Assembly (NCBI GenBank): GCA_013288335.1
Contig: JABDCC010000004.1
Location: 1 to 64,000, forward strand
Origin: Alphaproteobacteria bacterium
Lineage (GTDB): Bacteria > Pseudomonadota > Alphaproteobacteria > Rickettsiales > JABCZZ01
Length of the DNA stretch: 64,000 nt
Direction of reading: 5' to 3'
Positions 9,015 to 64,000 of this stretch are shown here, piece after piece. Each line of letters opens with the position of its first letter. Position 1 is the first letter of the stretch. Under the pieces are notes generated by a model that worked only from the letters and a program-made list of their open reading frames with translations, was not told the origin of the DNA and made no database searches. The position numbers and the translations under genes were made by a program.

Positions 9015-9196
9015 AGGGGTGGTAAATTACCTTTACCGCCTGCTGCATAATGGCGGATCAGGCTTATGATAAATAACACGATGAAAATCACAGCAATGAT
9101 TTGCGCAATTTGCGAGAAGGTGCCGGCAAGGCCGCCAAAACCTAAAAAGCTTGCAAGTACTGCTAACAGAAAAAAAGTGATTACATAATTTAGCAT
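9011..9196 (-). CDS. DUF1328 small membrane protein
   Basis: MLNYVITFFLLAVLASFLGFGGLAGTFSQIAQIIAVIFIVLFIISL. Confidence 0.88.
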   Translation of the reverse strand: MLNYVITFFLLAVLASFLGFGGLAGTFSQIAQIIAVIFIVLFIISLIRHYAAGGKGNLPPL

Positions 9197-9224
9197 TGGA
9201 ATTCCCTCTGTATGGTTAAAAATA

Positions 9225-9259
9225 AACCAATAGCAACCCTTTAAGGGTTGCTATTGGTT
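9225..9259 (-). terminator. 35-bp perfect palindrome, likely intrinsic terminator
   Basis: aaccaatagcaaccctt-t-aagggttgctattggtt; on the minus strand followed by a T-rich tract, just after the 9287-9469 gene. Confidence 0.7.
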
Positions 9260-17897: not shown

Positions 17898-17918
17898 ATA
17901 AATAACAAGGAGATTGTC

Positions 17919-18119
17919 ATGAAAATTATAAAAATTGCGAGTGCACTGATAGTGCTGAGCAGTCTCTCTGGGTGTTATGTGGCCCCCGCCCAACCAGCGT
18001 ATGTTGCACCTGCTCCTTATCCTGGCTATTACGCTTACCCCGCCCCAGCATATTACGCAGCGCCAGTTTCCCTGGGCGTAAATGTAGGTGGTGGCGGTGG
18101 CTACTGGCGTCGTCATTAA
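17919..18119 (+). CDS. small Pro/Tyr/Ala-rich lipoprotein
   Basis: Lipobox LSGC then YVAPAQPAYVAPAPYPGYYAYPAPAYYAAP. Confidence 0.6.
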   Translation: MKIIKIASALIVLSSLSGCYVAPAQPAYVAPAPYPGYYAYPAPAYYAAPVSLGVNVGGGGGYWRRH

Positions 18120-53128: not shown

Positions 53129-53203
53129 GGCTGGGTAGCAAAGTGGTAATGCACGGGACTGCAAATCCTGTATTCGGGAGTTCGATTCTCCCCCCGGCCT
53201 CCA
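53129..53203 (+). tRNA. tRNA-Cys (GCA anticodon), CCA encoded
   Basis: GGCTGGG/CCCGGCC acceptor stem, anticodon loop CTGCAAA, TTCGATT T-loop, U73 discriminator, CCA. Confidence 0.95.
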
Positions 53204-53309
53204 TTTCATCATTTCTCTACATCTCGTAAAATCTCAAAAATCAGCTTGAAACCAAGTAAATAAGCCATATGATGGTGATCATATCATCTCATGATGTTTT
53301 ACGACAGCA

Positions 53310-53340
53310 TGGGTACATATGGGTACATTTATGGGTACAT
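53310..53340 (+). repeat. three direct gggtaca iterons downstream of tRNA-Cys
   Basis: tgggtacatatgggtacatttatgggtaca. Confidence 0.6.
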
Positions 53341-53368
53341 TTTAATATCCACTTGGGAGATTCACTTT

Positions 53369-53434
53369 ATGCTTCTAACCAACATTGAAGTTAAAAACGC
53401 TAAACCTGGAGATAAACCCTATAAGGGTGATTAG
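53369..53434 (+). pseudogene. N-terminal remnant of a P4-type tyrosine integrase (DUF4102)
   Basis: MLLTNIEVKNAKPGDKPYKGD* matches the start of tRNA-targeting integrases (..T..xIxNAKPGxKPYK..) and then stops; directly downstream of tRNA-Cys. Confidence 0.7.
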
Positions 53435-53603
53435 AGAGTCCGGAGAAATGCAATTGCCATCTTCCTAATCCAAACCTCCGTAATTAAGATATTATCATCT
53501 CACCCCATCTCAATAAACCGTGAGTTTATTTGTGGGTAACTGAAAAAATGATAGCAGGAATTAAATAATATAATCAGTGAGTTATTTCTTTAATGTGAGC
53601 CCT

Positions 53604-53713
53604 AGTCCCCTACAATCTTTATAATCACGGGTACTTATCTGGGTATTTCTGTAAATCTTATTTGATATTGCACTAATAATCAATTGCTTGCCAAGAAAGT
53701 CTGTAGCCACCCT
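53604..53713 (+). repeat. att-like direct repeat, copy B
   Basis: agtcccc...cgggtacttatctgggtatttctgtaaat...aatcaattgcttgccaagaaagtc...gccaccct; aligns with copy C. Confidence 0.65.
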
Positions 53714-53727
53714 AGTTTGAGTAAAAC

Positions 53728-55650
53728 TTACGAATTTCTTGCAACAAAAGTATCGGTGTTTCTTTCTCTATAATCTGCAGCGGTTTTACCTTCAGTAATC
53801 TCCACGTCTTTTACATGATCGCGAATTGCATGATCGAATAAATTTCTCACGGTCGCTGGGTCAAATTTTTGCCTTGTTTTACGAATACGCTCTCCTTCAT
53901 CGTTATATTTATTAATAGCCCGGTTACCATAAGTCTCATTTAAAGCTTTTTTAAACAAATCACTGATTTCTTTTACAAGCGCCTTGATCGTTTTTTCATC
54001 GTCATTTATTATTTCGAACGTTCTTAAAATGGGTTTTCCGCTTTTCTCTTTAAATTCAATAAAGTCATTTTCTGATTTGCTGCCTCGTTGCAAACAAAGC
54101 GTAAGCATCTTTTTTCCATCTATTATTGGTTGATGCTTAATGGCTACCTGGAAATTTTGCTTTGGGTTGGGCATATCTTCAATAAAATGATCTAATGTTT
54201 GTGGATGAGGGTCACGCGGGATGACTTTTGTGTCTGCTTCACGTAAAATGAGCTCACCATTGGTTACACCTTTCCAATACCATTCCGTATCGGGATATTC
54301 CGTACGCATTTTCTTAAAATTATTAATTAAAGATTCTAACGCTTCATGTGCACGTATTTGCGCGGCCGTCTCATCGGCCGTGTGCAGGTTCATGCTTGCC
54401 TGATAATGCATAGCTTCTTGGGGTTTTGTAAAATCCAAACCCACCACATCGAATGTTAGCATCAATCGCCAAATAGGGTTAGGATTTTTTATGCCGCCTT
54501 CTAAACGAAGATAGGCATTTTTAATAAAGGTGGACTGGTGCTTTTTGGCAGGAAAATCAACCGATATACCGTGGGGATTATCGGTTTCTGCTTTAAGTCT
54601 GTTAAAATAAGGTATTTCCAGATTTTTCTTTTCATCGATCTGCCAACCTTGCGTAAATTCAACATTTAAAGAAGATTTTCCTGTTTCTTTAACGGCATAT
54701 TTTAGATTTTGCACTACTTCACCCAATGTTTCCCAGCGGTCATTAAAAATAAGATCATAAATATGCTCTTCTAGGTGGTCCAAACGGGCCTTGGCTTCTT
54801 GGGCTATAACCATAGCTCTTGGTTCATATTTGATGCCAAGCGGTATCACAATTTGCTGCGTATCTTTTGGAGAATCCCCCTGAAATAGAAAACTTGCCGC
54901 ATAGAAATCGCCATAATTGATCAGCTCCATTTTATCAGGCTGGCGGTTAGGCATGAATGTATCGTTATTATCATCCGCTCTCTCTGATTCTCCTACCTTA
55001 TGTAAACGCAACGGAATAATCGATGGGTGATTGAGTATATGGCTCTGAATCGCTTTCTTAAGCTCAATCGCCTCATCTAAATTTTCTGTATGGGAACTGA
55101 CATAAAATTCCTGCGTATCGCCATGAGCACTGCGAAGTATAAATCGTATTGGAAAATTGTTAGTTTCTCCATGGTCACCTAAAACAAGGCTACATTGAAA
55201 CTGGTTGCAAGGTGGGTTGTAGACCAAGGCTTGCGCAAGAAATGGTCGCACTGCTTCAATGAGCTGCTGCTCTCGTTCAACTAGCTTATCATTAGTCAGT
55301 AATTTTGGTTTGAATTGCCATAAAGATAAATCAAGGGTAGGAAATTCGGGTGATTTCGGTTTTGGGGTTTCGGTTTTTTGTACAACTTGTGCAACCAATG
55401 CCGGAGGTTCTGTAACAATGGGTGGCGAGGGTTGAACATCTGTGGGAGCTATTTCTACAGGAGTGGGCGGTGGCGTTATAATCTCTTCAGCAACAGGGAA
55501 CATTTCTGTAGGTTCAATTTCTTCTTCAGGCACTTCTTTTTGCGCGGTTGGCTTTTTTAACGCAGGGGTTTTAACACCTGCTTTATTTAATAAATCAAAA
55601 GCAAGTTGCAGCCTATCTAAGGATGAGTCGTTTATAGGTTCATCACTCAT
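53728..55650 (-). CDS. 640-aa protein of unknown function, Pro/Glu-rich N-terminal linker
   Basis: ORF with RBS caggaggtgccgcttt-ATG; ATGA overlap with the upstream 1124-aa gene. Confidence 0.75.
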   Translation of the reverse strand: MSDEPINDSSLDRLQLAFDLLNKAGVKTPALKKPTAQKEVPEEEIEPTEMFPVAEEIITPPPTPVEIAPTDVQPSPPIVTEPPALVAQVVQKTETPKPKSPEFPTLDLSLWQFKPKLLTNDKLVEREQQLIEAVRPFLAQALVYNPPCNQFQCSLVLGDHGETNNFPIRFILRSAHGDTQEFYVSSHTENLDEAIELKKAIQSHILNHPSIIPLRLHKVGESERADDNNDTFMPNRQPDKMELINYGDFYAASFLFQGDSPKDTQQIVIPLGIKYEPRAMVIAQEAKARLDHLEEHIYDLIFNDRWETLGEVVQNLKYAVKETGKSSLNVEFTQGWQIDEKKNLEIPYFNRLKAETDNPHGISVDFPAKKHQSTFIKNAYLRLEGGIKNPNPIWRLMLTFDVVGLDFTKPQEAMHYQASMNLHTADETAAQIRAHEALESLINNFKKMRTEYPDTEWYWKGVTNGELILREADTKVIPRDPHPQTLDHFIEDMPNPKQNFQVAIKHQPIIDGKKMLTLCLQRGSKSENDFIEFKEKSGKPILRTFEIINDDEKTIKALVKEISDLFKKALNETYGNRAINKYNDEGERIRKTRQKFDPATVRNLFDHAIRDHVKDVEITEGKTAADYRERNTDTFVARNS

Positions 55651-58600
55651 AAAGCGGCACCTCCTGACTGGGATTGGTCAATAATAAGGGCTTCACGGGC
55701 ACGCCAGTCAGCAGTTTCTTCTGGCATAGTACCCAACCTATCTTTATGATCGTCACGCAACTTGCGCACATCAGGATCGTTACCAAGCGTTGCTACAATA
55801 AGGGTTGGTGATTTAAATAAATAATTTTTGATTTCTTCATTACTGCCTGATTCATCCGCAAAGAAAGCCGAAATCACTTTTTGTGCCTGGGCTTGAAACC
55901 CTTCGGGATGAGGACGTAATTTATCTTCGGAACTCGGTATTTTGCAGGCATATTCTGCGCGGCGCAGAGTGCTTTCAGCGAATAATATATCCGCTAATGC
56001 TTTATGTCCGGGCAGTGTTATATCAAATAATTTGTTTAAGGGTTCAATTTCTTCTTTATTGAGATAATACATGCGAAGGGATAATTGTTTTTCTGCTTCT
56101 TGCGCATTTTTATCTTTAATACCCTGCCAATGTTTAAGCTCCGCTTTGCCGCTTCGGTTAATAATACGGCCATAGACGGTACCTTCTATATTATCGATAA
56201 CATAGCGAGTATTTGGGGGTTTTTCTTTTTTAATAAGATCATCTTTTTTAAGCGCCTTCTCTTTTGCAAGAGTTGCAGCCGTTACTAAATACTCCACTTT
56301 CTCCAATTCATCTGGCCAGAGAAAGACCTTGGTTTTTAAAGCTTCAAGTTTTTGCATTTGCAATTCTACCTCGGCAAGCTTTTCATCCGATATGTTTTTC
56401 TTTTTATTGAGATAATCAATACTATTATATATAGCAGCCGCAAATATTTGATCAGCACGTGGCGTGCTATAATTATATTTGCCGTCATTGGCTTCATCGA
56501 CATGCAAATTCTTAAGTAATGCTAGCGGTAAAGTGCCTTCCGCATAAGATCGCAAAATATTGGTTTCATTGGGCACTTGCAGCGGATTTTTTGGAACTTC
56601 ATTATTAAGCAGCTCTTCTTCATGAGGCAATATTATGGGGGGGCGCGGCGAATTTATAAACCCGAGCATCATTTCTTGTGTAATATAGTTTAAATATTCT
56701 TTATTTTCCGTAGTAGATTGTGCACTCTTAGTAATTGCACTTCTATATAAAGGCGGCTGCTGTGCAGGGTTTCCTGGCATTTCTTTGCGCATAGCATTCT
56801 TTACTACTTTTGATTTTTGGCGCATTCCATCTAAACCGTAGGCGAAAATAGCCATCAATTGCCGCGCACAAAAACGAAATTGTGCATTAAATTCATCTGG
56901 TGTTACCCCCAATATTTCCACTGTTTTATTGAGTTCCTGAAAATAATCTTGCTGCGGCAGAGTTAATGTTTCTGTTTGAATGGCAAATGCCTTTGCTGAA
57001 GCCTCTTGCATTGGCAAAGTCGCACCACGTAAAATACTATTGGCTTCTTGTTTGAGATTATAATCATATTTATGGTTAGCAAGCGTAGTAAGTGGCAAGT
57101 ATTGGCGGAGTTTTTCCGGCTCTTCATATGCTTTTAAATTTAGGTTTTTAGGATCCTGGACCCAACTACTTGGCAATTGCTTATAATTCTCTACAGTTTC
57201 TTGTTCTACTGCTTCCCATAACTCTTTTGCGTAAGGATATTTTGTATCATCAAACGCACATAATAATGCGTGATCACGCAATACATAGTCTATACGCGGA
57301 TCTTCTAGCGCCGTAGGGCTCACGATAATAATATTTTGTCTTTGGTTTTTTGTAATCGTGGGCTCAGGATCAGCAGGATTTAAAATGAATTTTGTGCCTG
57401 AACGTTTAATAACCACGCGAGCTGGCTCGTCCATCTCATCATAAATATGTTTTAATGCAGCTATAGTATCTTGATGTTCAGGAAGTTCTACAATGTCTTT
57501 TTGCTGCTTTTGCGCTTGGGCAAACCATTCATCTGCATGTTGTTGGATTTTGCTAAAATATTCATCTGTATTTAAAAGACTGCCATTTTCAAGGCGCAAG
57601 GTAACACCATTTTCCTTCATTATTTTTTTGCGTTTCTCTATGGTATTTAAGAAACTGTCTTTATTTTGCAAAGCAATTTTATCGAAGCTAGCCAATAAAT
57701 AAGCGAGGCTTAGAGAAGAATCTGGCGTTGTATTGATAAGCGATTTTGTGTCTTGTAATGTTAGATAATGATATTTACCGGTTTTTTCAGCTTGATTAAC
57801 ACAAGCTGACGTAAGCAATAACCCGGAATAGGGTTCAATGCTGGTAGTAGCAGCTATTTTTTGTGGAATTTCTGGTTCGTTGTTTTTTGCAAATGTATAA
57901 TATTTAGGGGTGAATATATCCTGATTATTTGCTTTTTCTGCACTATAGGTTCGCGCTAAGGCGCCCATAAAATTAACATAAAAACTTTCCGCTATAGGTT
58001 GGTTTCTAAATTCCTCTTCACCTGCTATTCCCAAATAGGTATTATAGAGTGCGTTGTTGCACTTATCAGCAAGTCCCCGAGAACTGGGTCTTTTAACTCT
58101 ATAAAGCAAACCAGGAAAAAACTCTCTTTCATGGTCTACTTCGACTTTTGCAATGGCTCGGTTATGATGAAATACTCCCCCGCAAGCCGTCGTAATAAGA
58201 TCCATCCCCACGCATTTTTTATCAGCAAGATGTTCATTTCTTATAAGTATTATATCGTCATCCACCCCCTTACCTTGTATTAAATCGGTATTTAACCACC
58301 ATTCTTTATTTTCATTATTTTTATCTTTCTTCTGGTTTAAAATAATTACAGGGAGGCGTTCTTTACTAATGGCTTGCAACAATGGATCAGGAACAAAATC
58401 GCGGGCGCTGCGTAAATTATACTCATAAATTTTTAAATCGTTGGGAGAGGTTTCCGGAGCAGGTCTATGTTTATAAATGAAATTAAACATCGCAATAGTA
58501 GCTATTGGATTGGCTTCCATCATATCTAATGTGTTCAAAAGATTTTCTACCGTTGCTTGGGTATTTTTATTAATAAAATCAGGAAGATTTTTACCTGTAA

Positions 58601-59021
58601 TTTCAGCTCTTTTATCCTTTTGTATCGTTTCTTGTAAAAATTTCTGCGCATCAGTTGCCCAAATGCTCCTGGGTTCATCCTTTGCAACTTCGTCAGGCTT
58701 CTTTTGGTTTTTAATCAGTGTATTTTTAGCAAACTCAACCAGTTCAGGTGCCTGCTTACGCGCTTGTGCTATTTTCTTTAAGAGAATATTTCTGGCATCA
58801 CTGGAATACATTTCATCGCGGCTTAAAGCAAATGGCGCAAATCGGATTGACTCAATGGCGGGCTGGTTACCCATAAAATGCCCAAAAGCAGATTTCACTC
58901 CTCCAACAATGTCTAAATATACATCGTTGCCGGCAAAAATACGCAAAGGTACGTCGCGTTTATCATCCGGGGAGATTATTTTTAATTCGTTATCTGGCAT
59001 TATATATCTCGCTTTTAGCAC
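55647..59021 (-). CDS. 1124-aa protein of unknown function
   Basis: Long ORF (start possibly at internal MPDNEL); no recognised catalytic motif; translationally coupled to the 640-aa gene. Confidence 0.75.
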   Translation of the reverse strand: MLKARYIMPDNELKIISPDDKRDVPLRIFAGNDVYLDIVGGVKSAFGHFMGNQPAIESIRFAPFALSRDEMYSSDARNILLKKIAQARKQAPELVEFAKNTLIKNQKKPDEVAKDEPRSIWATDAQKFLQETIQKDKRAEITGKNLPDFINKNTQATVENLLNTLDMMEANPIATIAMFNFIYKHRPAPETSPNDLKIYEYNLRSARDFVPDPLLQAISKERLPVIILNQKKDKNNENKEWWLNTDLIQGKGVDDDIILIRNEHLADKKCVGMDLITTACGGVFHHNRAIAKVEVDHEREFFPGLLYRVKRPSSRGLADKCNNALYNTYLGIAGEEEFRNQPIAESFYVNFMGALARTYSAEKANNQDIFTPKYYTFAKNNEPEIPQKIAATTSIEPYSGLLLTSACVNQAEKTGKYHYLTLQDTKSLINTTPDSSLSLAYLLASFDKIALQNKDSFLNTIEKRKKIMKENGVTLRLENGSLLNTDEYFSKIQQHADEWFAQAQKQQKDIVELPEHQDTIAALKHIYDEMDEPARVVIKRSGTKFILNPADPEPTITKNQRQNIIIVSPTALEDPRIDYVLRDHALLCAFDDTKYPYAKELWEAVEQETVENYKQLPSSWVQDPKNLNLKAYEEPEKLRQYLPLTTLANHKYDYNLKQEANSILRGATLPMQEASAKAFAIQTETLTLPQQDYFQELNKTVEILGVTPDEFNAQFRFCARQLMAIFAYGLDGMRQKSKVVKNAMRKEMPGNPAQQPPLYRSAITKSAQSTTENKEYLNYITQEMMLGFINSPRPPIILPHEEELLNNEVPKNPLQVPNETNILRSYAEGTLPLALLKNLHVDEANDGKYNYSTPRADQIFAAAIYNSIDYLNKKKNISDEKLAEVELQMQKLEALKTKVFLWPDELEKVEYLVTAATLAKEKALKKDDLIKKEKPPNTRYVIDNIEGTVYGRIINRSGKAELKHWQGIKDKNAQEAEKQLSLRMYYLNKEEIEPLNKLFDITLPGHKALADILFAESTLRRAEYACKIPSSEDKLRPHPEGFQAQAQKVISAFFADESGSNEEIKNYLFKSPTLIVATLGNDPDVRKLRDDHKDRLGTMPEETADWRAREALIIDQSQSGGAAL

Positions 59022-59164
59022 TAATAGTTCTTAGCTAATTTAACAGATAACATACCCTAATTGTGTTAAGATTGTGTTAAGGCTGGGATATTTTATAGGT
59101 TGGGTGTTGTGGAGATTTTTAAAATATATGACTTAGAATCAGTTAGTTATATAAATTAGGTAAC

Positions 59165-59280
59165 AGTCCCCACCCCACGTTAAGAATTATGGGTACATAC
59201 CCGGGTACTTCTATAAACCTCATTTGGTATTAGTAATAACAATCAATTGCTTACCCAGAAAGTTCCGTTGTCACCCCCGC
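59165..59280 (+). repeat. att-like direct repeat, copy C
   Basis: agtcccc...atgggtacatacccgggtacttctataaacct...aatcaattgcttacccagaaagttcc...gtcaccccc. Confidence 0.65.
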
Positions 59281-59342
59281 AATTTTTGCCACTTGATTAA
59301 TCAAATAATATAGGACGTTTCCTTTGAAAGTGTAATAATTTG

Positions 59343-60164
59343 TTAACACTTACATGCTATTATTGGGGGTAATAAAGCGACTTTACCATAACAATAAAAG
59401 CAATATTCGCATGAGTACAGATGACAAAACGATTGAGGAATTAAAGAACGGTGTAATTCCGGATCATGTGAGCGAGGGCTTACCTTATAGTGCAACCCGA
59501 AAGGTTCATTTTGCATGACCACTACAATGGGACGTTCATTGTGCAGATAACTACTGGTGCTGGCTATATCAAACAATATCTTGCGTATATGAGTATTATC
59601 GTGATCCGGATGCACGAAAAAATGAATAACACAGAGCAAATCTTTATTACCACTGGTGGCATTGATAAGAGGTGTATGCCATAAGGTGCTGTGCGGGATA
59701 CTTACATCATTAGCATCTGCTGTACGAAGTTTTACGGTACGCAAACCCACTTCTATTACTTCCCCGTAAGTATCATCAATCTGTATCCAGTCTCCTACAC
59801 GGTAAGCCCGTTCAACAAGCAATATAAATCCTGCAAAAATGCAATTGATGTAATCCTTAAGCACAAAACCAATTGCAAGCGCTGTTGCCCCTAGCAGGAT
59901 CAGTACATTCTCCCGTGTCGGTATAATAACAAAGGGAACAATGAGTATTGCAGCCCCAAGAATTATTATAAGACGCAGTATGGGAATCCATGGAAGTATA
60001 TAAAAACGGTCATGAGGATAGAACTTTGCCGTAATACTGGGAATCAAGTGCCGGATCGATTCATAAATTCCTACTGCAGCCAATATAATCAATAAAATGT
60101 GAACATGTTCATTCCCATTCCATTCGCGCAGCATGTCCATCCAGTTGTCCGACATATTGACCAT
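59343..60164 (-). CDS. MscS-family mechanosensitive channel with apparently degenerate C-terminus
   Basis: ILLGATALAIGFVLKDYINCIFAGFILLVERAYRVGDWIQIDDTYGEVIEVGLRTVKLRTADANDVSIPHSTL; last ~45 aa (SPRSHDPELHRSLIPQSFCHLYSCEYCFYC...) do not look like MscS. Confidence 0.75.
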   Translation of the reverse strand: MVNMSDNWMDMLREWNGNEHVHILLIILAAVGIYESIRHLIPSITAKFYPHDRFYILPWIPILRLIIILGAAILIVPFVIIPTRENVLILLGATALAIGFVLKDYINCIFAGFILLVERAYRVGDWIQIDDTYGEVIEVGLRTVKLRTADANDVSIPHSTLWHTPLINATSGNKDLLCVIHFFVHPDHDNTHIRKILFDIASTSSYLHNERPIVVVMQNEPFGLHYKVSPRSHDPELHRSLIPQSFCHLYSCEYCFYCYGKVALLPPIIACKC

Positions 60165-60388
60165 CCCTTACCTCTTATAATGTTATAGCGATAATGTGTA
60201 ATTCTTAGAATAGCGTAGTAAAAAGGCAGTAGCCTAGGTACTGTCCAATTCTTATAATATCTTTATTTTCGTCATACATAAGGACAAGTATAGATTGTAA
60301 TCAAAACGCTCGCGTGGTGTAGTGTATACTGCGCTAAAGAGATATGATAGTTAGGATATGATTTATTAGTATCACCACATCTCAACAC

Positions 60389-60487
60389 CTCACGGGTATA
60401 AGTATGGGTACTTGAGAAAAACCAGCGATTGAATCCACTTTATAATCAGTTGCTTACCTTAATGACTGACGAGTCCCCCCGCCTCCA
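60389..60487 (+). repeat. att-like direct repeat, copy D, with tRNA-Cys 3'-end-like core
   Basis: acgggtataagtatgggtactt...ataatcagttgcttacc...gacgagtccccccgcctcca; compare tRNA ...gattctccccccggcctcca. Confidence 0.6.
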
Positions 60488-60542: not shown

Positions 60543-63500
60543 TTAGAACGCTATTTTGATTCCGAGCTTAGCGTCATTTATAGTTTCATTGCTGCTGCGG
60601 GAATATTGGTAATCCACATAAGCACTGGTACTGTTAGTGAGTGCAAAATTAAATCCTATTCCTGCGGTAGCAAAGGTCTGATCGGCAGTATCAAGACTCA
60701 AATCAAAATTGTCACCGGTTGCGAAATCACCACTGAAGTTTCTCTTAGTAGTGGACAATTCACGATAAACTCCAAGGTTGAAGCTTGGACTAAATTTAAT
60801 ATCATAGCCGGGTATGTCGAGTCCTGGCCCATTATAAAAAGAGAATCCGGCAGAAGGCACAAGCGTGCCATAATCAAAACTATTTATACTGACTTGTGAT
60901 GCTCCGCCGTCTGTTTCGCTAAATCCGCTGGTGAATACATGTATATACTCCATGCCCACTTTTGGCATTACATACCAACCGTCGCTCGTAATTTGTTTAC
61001 GCGCGCCAAGTTGCAAGGTAGTGCCCGCTTCATAAGAATTAGAATTGGAATTAGCAACAGACACGGTACCGCTATTACTGACAATACGGTTATTGGCAGA
61101 GCGATCATAGCCAGTTATCACACCCAAAGTTGCGAATCCGCTCCAATCGCTGACAGGCTGAACATAAGTTCCATACACTGTTCCAAAAGCACCGTTGCCA
61201 AAGTCTTTTCCCGCGCCACCTTTAAGGTAAGTGCTGTTTTCTATATCCGCCAGAGCAAAACCTAATTTTACATTTTCCGATTTCGCAAATTCTCCACCAC
61301 CCGCCGTGCCATATATGTTGTCATTAAAGCCGTTATACAATCCGTTATCATTCCGATTATACTGACGGTAAATACCTTTTGCCCACCAATGATCTTCCGT
61401 ATCAAATGCATATTCGGAAGAAGTATCAAACATGGTGTTGGTAAATAAGAGTCCGTTTTCAAGTGCGGAAAGACTTGATGCGCTGAAATAGGAGGGACTG
61501 AGCAACGTTAAGGAAAGGCTACCCGCAGAAACTAATCCAGCGTTAGAATTATAGGTTAGATTTGCTGCAAGGCCGTTTAAATCAATATGATCAAATGTAC
61601 CTGTGAGTGTTCCGCCTGCCATGAGATAGGTAATGTTGCTTCCGGTGAAACCAGCAAGCGGAATGATGTCCAGCGTTGCATTGGGATCAATAGTAATATT
61701 ACCAGTAGCATTAAGCCTGTCAGCTGTAGTTCCTGCAACCTGTACCTGGAAAGTTGACCCACTACCGAATGTTGCATTGCCGACTACATTGACGGTTCCG
61801 ATGGAATTACCAGGCGCAAGCATCCCGCCATTGCCAATAATAAGATTTCCATTAAGCGTGTTGTTGCCACCAAACTCTCCACCACTTCCCACTGTAACAC
61901 TGGCAGCGTCAAAAACACCATTAACGTGAAGGCTGCCACCACTTAACGTAATTGCATCACCTGTAGAATCAATCGTACCATTGATAAGCGATCTACCAGT
62001 CAACCCAAATGTCGAAAACCCGTTCAGAGCATTACTACCTGATAAGGTGGTAGTCGTATCGTTCAGATTAAGCGTATTGCTTCCCGAACCAGGGTTAACA
62101 TTACCGTTAATGGCCACGGTTCCTGCAAGATTTAAAGTATTTCCAAGATTGCTCAAGCTGATTGCCGTACCACCTGTACCGGTTACGGAAACTGCTGAAG
62201 AACTTCCATCGAGTGTTACAGAGGACCGCGTGCCAGCGTCTGTACTAATACCGATATTGCCAGTTACAATACCACCATTGGTTACATTGATTGCTGTACT
62301 GGAACCGGTGTCGTTTATGGCATAAATAGCGTTTCCGCTTGCTCCGGTTACTTGCCCGCTTGTGGTTATTGTAAGTGAGCCAGTGCTTCGGTTTATAGCA
62401 TAAATACCATCAATAGCTCCAGTAATATTGCTACTGGTTCCTGCCGTAATATTTAAGTTGGCTCCATTAGAAGAGTTGCTGCCATAGACACCATAACCAG
62501 AAGTGCCGGTAATTGTACCATTAGCTGCGATTGTAAGTGTTCCAGTGCCATAATTTTTGGCAAATACGCCAACAGTATCTCCAGTAATATTACTGCTATT
62601 TCCTGTTGTGATATTTAGGTTAGTACCGTTAGAAGAATTTTTAGCATATACGCCACTTGCAGTCGTGCCTATAATATTCCCATCTGCGTTTATCGTAAGG
62701 TAACCCGTACCATTATTTTTGGCATAAACACCATTCGTGGTACCGGTAATATTACTGCTGGCTCCTGTTATAATACTGAGGTTGGTGCCATTGGAAGAAT
62801 TGTTGGCATGGATACCATCGTAATTCGTACCGGTTACGGCACCATAGGCATCAACGTTCAAAGCACCAGTACTGAGATTGTGAGCATCTATACCGTATGT
62901 ACCAGTAACATTGCTCGCAGCTCCAGTTATGATGGCTACGTTACCGCTGCTTGCAGCAGAATTGTAGGCTGCGATACCTGAACTTACACTGCTTGTTACT
63001 GTGCCATAAGCTGCGATAGTAACTGGGCCCGTGCCATAATTGAAAGCAGCAATACCTGCTTGATGACCGGTAATGGTGCTGCTTGATCCGGTTGTAATAT
63101 TTAAACTAGTTCCGTGGGAAGAATTATTGGCATATATGCCATAATCGTTTGTTCCGGTTACGGCACCATATGCAAATATAGCAAGCGCGCCCGTGCCATT
63201 ATTTCTTGCATATATACCAGTGGTACTGCCAGTAATATCGCTCAAGCTGCCAGAGGTAATGCGAATACCGGTGCTTGCACTGGTATTTTTTGCATAGATA
63301 CCCGATCCACTATTGCCGGTTACTGCGCCCCGAGCGTATATATTCGTGTAACCGGTACCTTTGTTTTTAGCAAAGATACCATCGGTGCCGCCACTGATTG
63401 TAGTTGAGCTTGCGCTTCCTACATACAGACTTGTACCAGCACTGCTGTTATAGGCATAAATACCGTGACTGGAGGTGCCGGTTACAGAGCCACTTGCATA

Positions 63501-64000
63501 TATATTTAAGATCCCAGAGCCATAATTTTTTGCCTGTATGCCATAAGTTCCACCGGTAATATTGCTCGATGGTCCTGTCGTAATATGTAGGTTTGTTCCA
63601 TTAGAAGAATTTCTGGCATAAATACCCTCTTGAGAGGTGCCGGTAACGTCACCCAACGTATCTATGTTGAGGTAACTATTTCCGCCATTTATTGCTTTAA
63701 TCCCAGAGGTGCTGCCGGTGATGTGACTTGCACTGCTGGTATAAATATTTACGTAAGTTCCACTAGTATTGTTATTGGCATTGATACCGACGCCATGTGA
63801 AGCGGTGACTGTGCCATAGGAATATATATTAATTCCCTCCGAGCCATTATTAAGCGCTTTAATACCATCAGCATAACCGTTTATGGTGCTTGCACTGCCC
63901 GTGATAATATTAATGCCGGTACCAGTAGTGGAATTTTTTGCATATATGCCATAATTATTTGTGCCGGTTACACTGCCACGGGCATTGATCTGAATTCCGG
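60543..64000 (-). CDS. type Va autotransporter (5'-partial, open at the right edge)
   Basis: Beta-helix repeat passenger, autotransporter linker (GGEFGGNNTLNGNLIIGNGGMLAPGNSIGTVNVVGNATFGSGSTFQVQV), C-terminal barrel ending DAKLGIKIAF; the frame stays open from 63656 to 64000, so the track start is not the real start. Confidence 0.92.
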   Translation of the reverse strand, partial: GIQINARGSVTGTNNYGIYAKNSTTGTGINIITGSASTINGYADGIKALNNGSEGINIYSYGTVTASHGVGINANNNTSGTYVNIYTSSASHITGSTSGIKAINGGNSYLNIDTLGDVTGTSQEGIYARNSSNGTNLHITTGPSSNITGGTYGIQAKNYGSGILNIYASGSVTGTSSHGIYAYNSSAGTSLYVGSASSTTISGGTDGIFAKNKGTGYTNIYARGAVTGNSGSGIYAKNTSASTGIRITSGSLSDITGSTTGIYARNNGTGALAIFAYGAVTGTNDYGIYANNSSHGTSLNITTGSSSTITGHQAGIAAFNYGTGPVTIAAYGTVTSSVSSGIAAYNSAASSGNVAIITGAASNVTGTYGIDAHNLSTGALNVDAYGAVTGTNYDGIHANNSSNGTNLSIITGASSNITGTTNGVYAKNNGTGYLTINADGNIIGTTASGVYAKNSSNGTNLNITTGNSSNITGDTVGVFAKNYGTGTLTIAANGTITGTSGYGVYGSNSSNGANLNITAGTSSNITGAIDGIYAINRSTGSLTITTSGQVTGASGNAIYAINDTGSSTAINVTNGGIVTGNIGISTDAGTRSSVTLDGSSSAVSVTGTGGTAISLSNLGNTLNLAGTVAINGNVNPGSGSNTLNLNDTTTTLSGSNALNGFSTFGLTGRSLINGTIDSTGDAITLSGGSLHVNGVFDAASVTVGSGGEFGGNNTLNGNLIIGNGGMLAPGNSIGTVNVVGNATFGSGSTFQVQVAGTTADRLNATGNITIDPNATLDIIPLAGFTGSNITYLMAGGTLTGTFDHIDLNGLAANLTYNSNAGLVSAGSLSLTLLSPSYFSASSLSALENGLLFTNTMFDTSSEYAFDTEDHWWAKGIYRQYNRNDNGLYNGFNDNIYGTAGGGEFAKSENVKLGFALADIENSTYLKGGAGKDFGNGAFGTVYGTYVQPVSDWSGFATLGVITGYDRSANNRIVSNSGTVSVANSNSNSYEAGTTLQLGARKQITSDGWYVMPKVGMEYIHVFTSGFSETDGGASQVSINSFDYGTLVPSAGFSFYNGPGLDIPGYDIKFSPSFNLGVYRELSTTKRNFSGDFATGDNFDLSLDTADQTFATAGIGFNFALTNSTSAYVDYQYSRSSNETINDAKLGIKIAF
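62358..63977 (-). repeat. 10 tandem 162-bp (54-aa) passenger repeats
   Basis: GxVTGTxxxGIYAxNSSxGTxLxITTGxSSxITGxTxGIxAxNxGTGxLxIxAx, ten copies, all exactly 54 codons. Confidence 0.92.

Follow-up and report, generated by a model that had tools for sequence, protein, structure and literature searches.

A decayed low-G+C island at tRNA-Cys in a Rickettsiales genome carrying two linked genes of an uncharacterised modular protein family

The window analysed here is a stretch of 64,000 nucleotides from an alphaproteobacterium of the order Rickettsiales (JABCZZ01; GenBank assembly GCA_013288335.1, contig JABDCC010000004.1, positions 1 to 64,000). Positions 53204-60487 of this window form an old island of low G+C content, 7.3 kb long, at the 3' end of a tRNA-Cys gene. 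Its main cargo is a pair of adjacent genes, referred to here as A and B, which are shown by their fusion in related genomes to be, at the level of sequence, two halves of one modular protein family. Within everything that was searched, the family of B appears restricted to Rickettsiales. The explanation that fits these data best, although tentative, is a decayed tRNA-Cys island that carries both halves of the modular family as cargo, with products that are possibly exported.

Results

The island at tRNA-Cys

The integration target is a tRNA-Cys gene (anticodon GCA) at 53129-53203 on the plus strand, which was found by both ARAGORN and Rfam (RF00005). On its 3' side, three GGGTAC motifs at 53311-53338 (plus strand) lie between the tRNA gene and a remnant of a P4-type tyrosine integrase at 53369-53434 (plus strand), and these motifs probably acted as arm sites of the integrase. 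According to its translation, the remnant consists of the first 21 codons, MLLTNIEVKNAKPGDKPYKGD, followed by a stop codon. In the same genome, contig C25 encodes an intact P4-type integrase that starts with MPLTEIAVRNAKPQAKPYKMTDG, and by reading, its first residues are similar to those of the remnant, which looks like the genuine N-terminus of an integrase of this type.

Further into the island, three attachment-site-like repeats were found on the plus strand. Repeat 1 covers 53604-53713 (motif at 53629-53692), repeat 2 covers 59165-59280 (motif at 59191-59255), and repeat 3 at 60394-60458 shows the same motif and spacing. Repeats 1 and 2 are 78% identical across 92 bp (E ~1e-14), with a Smith-Waterman score of 80 compared to a maximum of 27 in 300 shuffles. 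The shared motif, defined as GGGTAY-6-GGGTAY-N(25-45)-AATCARTTGCTTRCC, places two GGGTAY boxes 12 bp apart and AATCARTTGCTTRCC about 50 bp past the first box. Exactly three copies exist in the whole assembly of 1.47 Mb, all of them in the tRNA-Cys island and on a single strand, and neither the reverse nor the control search gave a match.

Just after repeat 3, at 60474-60487 (plus strand), stands TCCCCCCGCCTCCA, a near-copy of the 3' end of tRNA-Cys with one G missing. Considered alone, this similarity is weak (score 23, shuffle maximum 28), but since the third motif copy stands beside it, it is taken as the putative far end (attR) of the island. Because the third copy ends in this tRNA-Cys 3'-end copy, the repeats are best read as what remains of the attachment sites of several elements that were stacked at tRNA-Cys. 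The G+C content from tRNA-Cys to the third repeat is 38.5%, compared to 47.1% in the left and 43.9% in the right flank.

The segment between repeats 1 and 2 is filled by A and B. The only large open reading frames in 53204-60487 are those of B, A and a gene of the MscS type, and no tra genes are present. With 21 codons left of the integrase, the island holds no functional site-specific integrase, and for this reason it is termed decayed. An initial annotation of the window had reported two homologous direct repeats around a gene pair, next to tRNA-Cys and an integrase remnant, and had read the interval as an integrative island. These features were all recovered, and the island reading is now stronger than it was then, owing to the third repeat, which had been missed, to the tRNA-Cys 3'-end copy that accompanies it and to two B relatives in comparable tRNA islands. 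A plausible history is that elements entered tRNA-Cys at least twice, and probably three times, and were stacked end to end, after which the integrase would have been lost while A and B stayed open. Tandem accretion of islands at tRNA genes is well known (PMC4891358, PMC5704250).

Genes A and B

Both genes are encoded on the minus strand. Gene A (55647-59021) has a GTG start and a product of 1124 amino acids (aa); an in-frame ATG at 59000, resulting in 1117 aa, is the more likely start. Gene B (53728-55650) encodes 640 aa, which, based on the family alignment and a structural model, comprise a short helix, a proline-rich linker (about residues 29-107) and a conserved C-terminal domain (about 110-615), referred to as the B domain. 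The two reading frames share an ATGA overlap, and a ribosome-binding site, AGGAGGT (55665-55659, minus strand), lies within the end of gene A, eight bases before the ATG of B.

Neither protein contains a recognisable domain. Searches of A and B against Pfam, NCBIfam, PHROGs and PADLOC returned nothing credible (best E-value for PADLOC models 0.019), PDB searches by profile or sequence gave no match, and with the domain libraries searched, neither protein could be assigned to a nuclease or ATPase family. Matches to FlgI (E 0.03-0.07) were dismissed as chance. Degenerate zincin-like domains in A, considered for a pattern of strands and a helix at about residues 530-590, were dropped as well; there is no HExxH motif in A or B.

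A and B as one unit

In one relative, encoded in genome G058, both parts occur in a single polypeptide of 2049 aa, with an A-like part at residues 588-1303 followed by a B domain at 1591-2019. Residues 399-1096 of A match the middle of this protein, with 401-1096 aligned to 588-1303, and residues 264-611 of B match 1627-1995. The two regions are parted by a proline-rich stretch, and the boundary between genes A and B of the window falls there. Weaker but consistent matches (E 1e-5 to 1e-3) show the end of A fused to B in G003 and G010, and in G264, where the pieces were searched separately, A-like sequence is followed by B-like sequence on the same strand. When a profile of A was searched across 341 Rickettsiales genomes, A-like sequence was found only at B loci and directly upstream of B, while B also occurs at some loci without A.

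Since an A-like part and B are fused in relatives, a physical partnership is inferred, and the two proteins are probably subunits of a single machine. In the window, the ATGA overlap would keep their synthesis coordinated, and the products would join in a common complex. This agrees with the initial annotation in so far as it had proposed a dedicated module of two same-strand genes with coupled production and no recognised domain. Its suggestion of an effector and its partner is recast here: the two proteins are linked, and fused in relatives, but they are not obviously a toxin with its antidote and rather resemble halves of one modular protein. The pair did not turn out to be a known family either, and its relatives do have a mobile context. 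The defence role that the annotation also named is so far not supported, the one hint being the SF2 helicase gene beside two relatives.

Members and distribution of the B family

Nine loci in eight of the 341 genomes carry members of the B family, which have in common a conserved domain of about 500 aa at the C-terminus and are spread over five families of the order. In addition to B itself, the genome of the window contains a second copy on contig C10 (1738 aa, 48% identical over its B domain). The other members are found in G002 (899 aa), G067 (966 aa), G003 (1101 aa), G058 (2049 aa), G339 (at least 615 aa, running to the contig end), G010 (850 aa) and G264 (L061 8573-12863), where the relative is split over three overlapping broken frames. 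This broken A-B relative may be a decayed gene or the result of sequencing errors. Across the family, the C-terminal domain is constant, whereas the N-termini are variable and the neighbouring genes varied.

The N-terminal part of the C10 protein contains three repeats of 365 aa. By eye, the N-terminus of A appears collinear with this repeat, but hhalign gave a probability of 0.35%, and a relationship is not claimed.

Outside of the order, the searches were negative. Among 385 evenly sampled Alphaproteobacteria, matches to B were limited to the window's own genus, and there were no relatives of B in 50,697 phage records, 72,556 plasmid records and IMG/VR. A scan of genome contigs with B gave UBA1002 as the sole match, which is the G067 locus, and the same scan with A gave none. 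Weak matches to B (E ~1e-4, at most 60 positions) in two genomes of another Rickettsiales family, which carries the 120_Rick_ant domain, were judged to be chance because helical proteins were aligned in a linker. This domain is typical of Rickettsiales, and the assignment of the searched genomes to this order is based on its presence in two of them, compared to none among 14 controls.

By inspection, the relatives in the window's family have genes for flagella and Tad pili. Deep-branching families, Mitibacteraceae among them, have been reported to possess such genes (PMC9352585), and we infer that the window's family belongs with these.

Genomic settings of the other loci

On contig C10, the gene of 1738 aa and a gene of 776 aa are bordered on one side by tRNA-Arg and on the other by a 45-bp copy of the 3' half of this tRNA gene. 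The G+C content of this island is 38.5%, compared to 45% and 42% in its flanks, and a search with one distant integrase as query found no integrase fragments in it. The original tRNA-Arg (L011 9188-9409 and 17907-17951) appears to be split: its 5' half is located at about 9188-9228, with a GGGTAC box behind it, and its 3' half at 17907-17951. Between these halves, there is a complete tRNA-Arg with a matching change of A-T for G-C in the acceptor stem, and it seems that the inserted element brings a substitute tRNA with it. In the 776-aa product (L011 15257-17587) encoded beside the B relative, a GNAT acetyltransferase is fused to a flavin amine oxidase. Given this fusion and a deoxyhypusine-synthase-like gene at 4637-5617 of L011, polyamine chemistry is a possible theme.

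Similarly, genes of 533, 850 and 795 aa in G010 have tRNA-Asn on one side and, on the other, a 22-bp copy of the 3' end of that tRNA gene, and this island holds a truncated integrase. In G339, a tRNA-His is located 1.2 kb from the B locus, at the contig end. For the first eight B loci, a tRNA gene was found within 1.3 kb in four cases; the chance of this is 3e-4 to 6e-4, a rough value for which the number of tRNA genes was assumed. No flanking repeats were found at the loci in G058, G002 and G003.

A gene for an SF2 helicase of the ResIII type lies directly downstream of the B relative in both G058 and G010, the two proteins being 27% identical. A third helicase of the same family occurs in G003, where a tyrosine integrase, a 368-aa protein without a Pfam match and this helicase are grouped together (L044 3796-8886), probably as a separate mobile element. 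The assemblies of the window's genome, G002, G067 and G339, some of which are incomplete, do not contain the helicase. In G058, the other strand just past the 2049-aa relative encodes a HlyC-type acyltransferase, followed by a large gene (L003 15828-19001).

Other genes in and beside the island

The last segment of the island is occupied by a gene for an MscS-type mechanosensitive channel (59343-60164, minus strand; Pfam PF00924, E=3.4e-20). Its C-terminus is odd, possibly as a result of a truncation or a frameshift close to repeat 2. Just outside the island, a repetitive autotransporter of 3279 aa starts within the window (60543-64000) and continues in L004 (8544-18383).

Discussion

Possible function of the pair

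The cargo reading tentatively preferred here sees A and B as a cytosolic, order-specific modular protein that was spread as island cargo, a mechanism that is graded as weak. As the C-terminal domain is constant while N-termini and neighbours differ, the B domain could be a common carrier or docking part to which varying N-terminal parts and neighbours are added. The protein may leave the cell via the Rickettsiales type IV secretion system (the rvh T4SS) and be directed against competing microbes or protists. The coupling protein of this system was found in seven of the eight genomes tested (PF02534, E=6.5e-145 in the window's genome, where RvhD4 is encoded on contig C18, 27888-29192). It also fits this reading that no signal peptide is apparent and that in Rickettsiales, orphan modules of two genes that move laterally are already counted among candidate effectors (cREM-5/5p, PMC11077975).

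Several observations weigh against this reading. The presence of a T4SS is weak evidence, as the rvh system is general among Rickettsiales. No secretion signal was shown, the C-terminal tails are short, variable and only modestly basic, which makes them undiagnostic for translocation, and no catalytic domain was found. The structural models are of limited help: the AlphaFold2 model of B, built from eight sequences, is of middling quality (predicted local distance difference test, pLDDT, 68; predicted template-modelling score, pTM, 0.42), and the model of A, based on a two-row alignment, failed (pLDDT 34). A fold search with the B model gave no PDB match below an E-value of 0.001. Two viral fold matches below this value were not used, with TM-scores of at most 0.18 and a root-mean-square deviation above 22. 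Furthermore, the family is not always found in an island, since no tRNA site was seen at the loci in G002, G003 and G264, and the nearest tRNA in G058 is about 6 kb away. Finally, the SF2 helicase beside two relatives fits an intracellular role on nucleic acids better than export. A secreted, effector-like function is ranked slightly above a nucleic-acid conflict system, as a first guess of low confidence.

Such an intracellular conflict or defence system is the strongest of the alternatives, although a doubtful one. Here, B would bind nucleic acid through the four beta-beta-beta-alpha units that its model shows after a disordered linker, and A together with helicases would act on foreign DNA. 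The helicases beside the G058 and G010 relatives and near the integrase in G003 are consistent with this, as are the beta-rich units of the B model, each of which ends in a long helix, and the proteins of the ERF/RAD52 type among the weak fold matches to viruses. Islands at tRNA genes often carry defence genes, which also speaks for this possibility. However, with TM-scores of around 0.1 these matches cannot be used, the helicase is missing from the four assemblies named above, PADLOC models match neither A, B nor the B relatives, and A and B lack a recognised nuclease or ATPase family.

Another possibility, which is quite unlikely, is that the family is not cargo but a core protein of the mobile element itself, involved in excision, replication or packaging of a satellite-like element. 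This could explain why the islands hold little beyond B and one to three partner genes, why members of the B family are found in tRNA islands three times and why a working integrase is missing, as expected of an element that is moved in trans. On the other hand, at least three B loci are located outside recognisable islands, the partner genes differ between loci, and the phage, plasmid and IMG/VR records contain no B. In addition, the repeats of the window have diverged by 22% and yet both frames are open, which suggests selection on a function for the host. That A and B are housekeeping or metabolic genes caught between chance repeats is very improbable: the G002 and G003 relatives do lie between housekeeping genes without signs of an island, but all three motif copies in 1.47 Mb fall into the island of the window, tRNA 3'-end copies occur at three separate loci and integrase remnants at two, the G+C step coincides with the island ends, and only 8 of 341 genomes of the order contain the family.

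Significance of the family

For deep-branching Rickettsiales, a type IV secretion system has been described, but no verified effectors, including those of classical Rickettsiales, were found for the rvh T4SS of the basal families, and the role of the rvh system before it was turned on eukaryotic cells was left open (PMC9352585). A wider proposal that builds on the cargo reading, and which is in itself unlikely, is that an order-restricted modular family moves among the tRNA sites of flagellate, large-genome Rickettsiales in integrase-poor islands and would supply the missing ancestral cargo of the rvh T4SS. Large proteins that are confined to the order, mobile at tRNA genes, composed of interchangeable parts and probably co-produced with partners constitute a concrete list of candidates for this earlier role of the system. 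If the pair instead serves defence or the maintenance of an element, it would represent a new system of that kind. Under either reading, the fusions imply that A and B are best studied together, as a single complex.

Comparison with known systems

None of the family-defining tests that were run assigns the pair to a known family. The island itself resembles tRNA-integrated islands and integrative mobilisable elements (PMC4891358, PMC5704250) in its tRNA target, the duplicated tRNA 3' end at the opposite boundary, the N-terminus of a P4-type integrase near the tRNA, the stacked attachment sites and the step in G+C content. It differs from them in that its integrase is reduced to 21 codons, the segment lacks genes for conjugation or mobilisation, and the cargo is an orphan pair. 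With the Rickettsiales amplified genetic elements (RAGE), it shares the integrative habit, the order and an effector-like cargo (PMC11077975). However, RAGE are integrative and conjugative, whereas the 7.3-kb island is without tra genes. The modular proteins with SWA (120_Rick_ant, PF12574) are similar in that one shared domain is combined with different partners inside the order, in part as cargo of mobile DNA, but PF12574 has no match in A, B, their relatives or the window's own assembly.

A further comparison is offered by cREM-5/cREM-5p, a laterally moving two-gene orphan module of Rickettsia that is listed among candidate effectors (PMC11077975). By description only, the A/B pair is like this module in consisting of two adjacent orphan genes without detectable domains that spread laterally in Rickettsiales, and, again by description only, it is set apart by B relatives in five families of the order. 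What is new here is the protein family, uncharacterised and unusual in its genomic habit, rather than the kind of mobile element.
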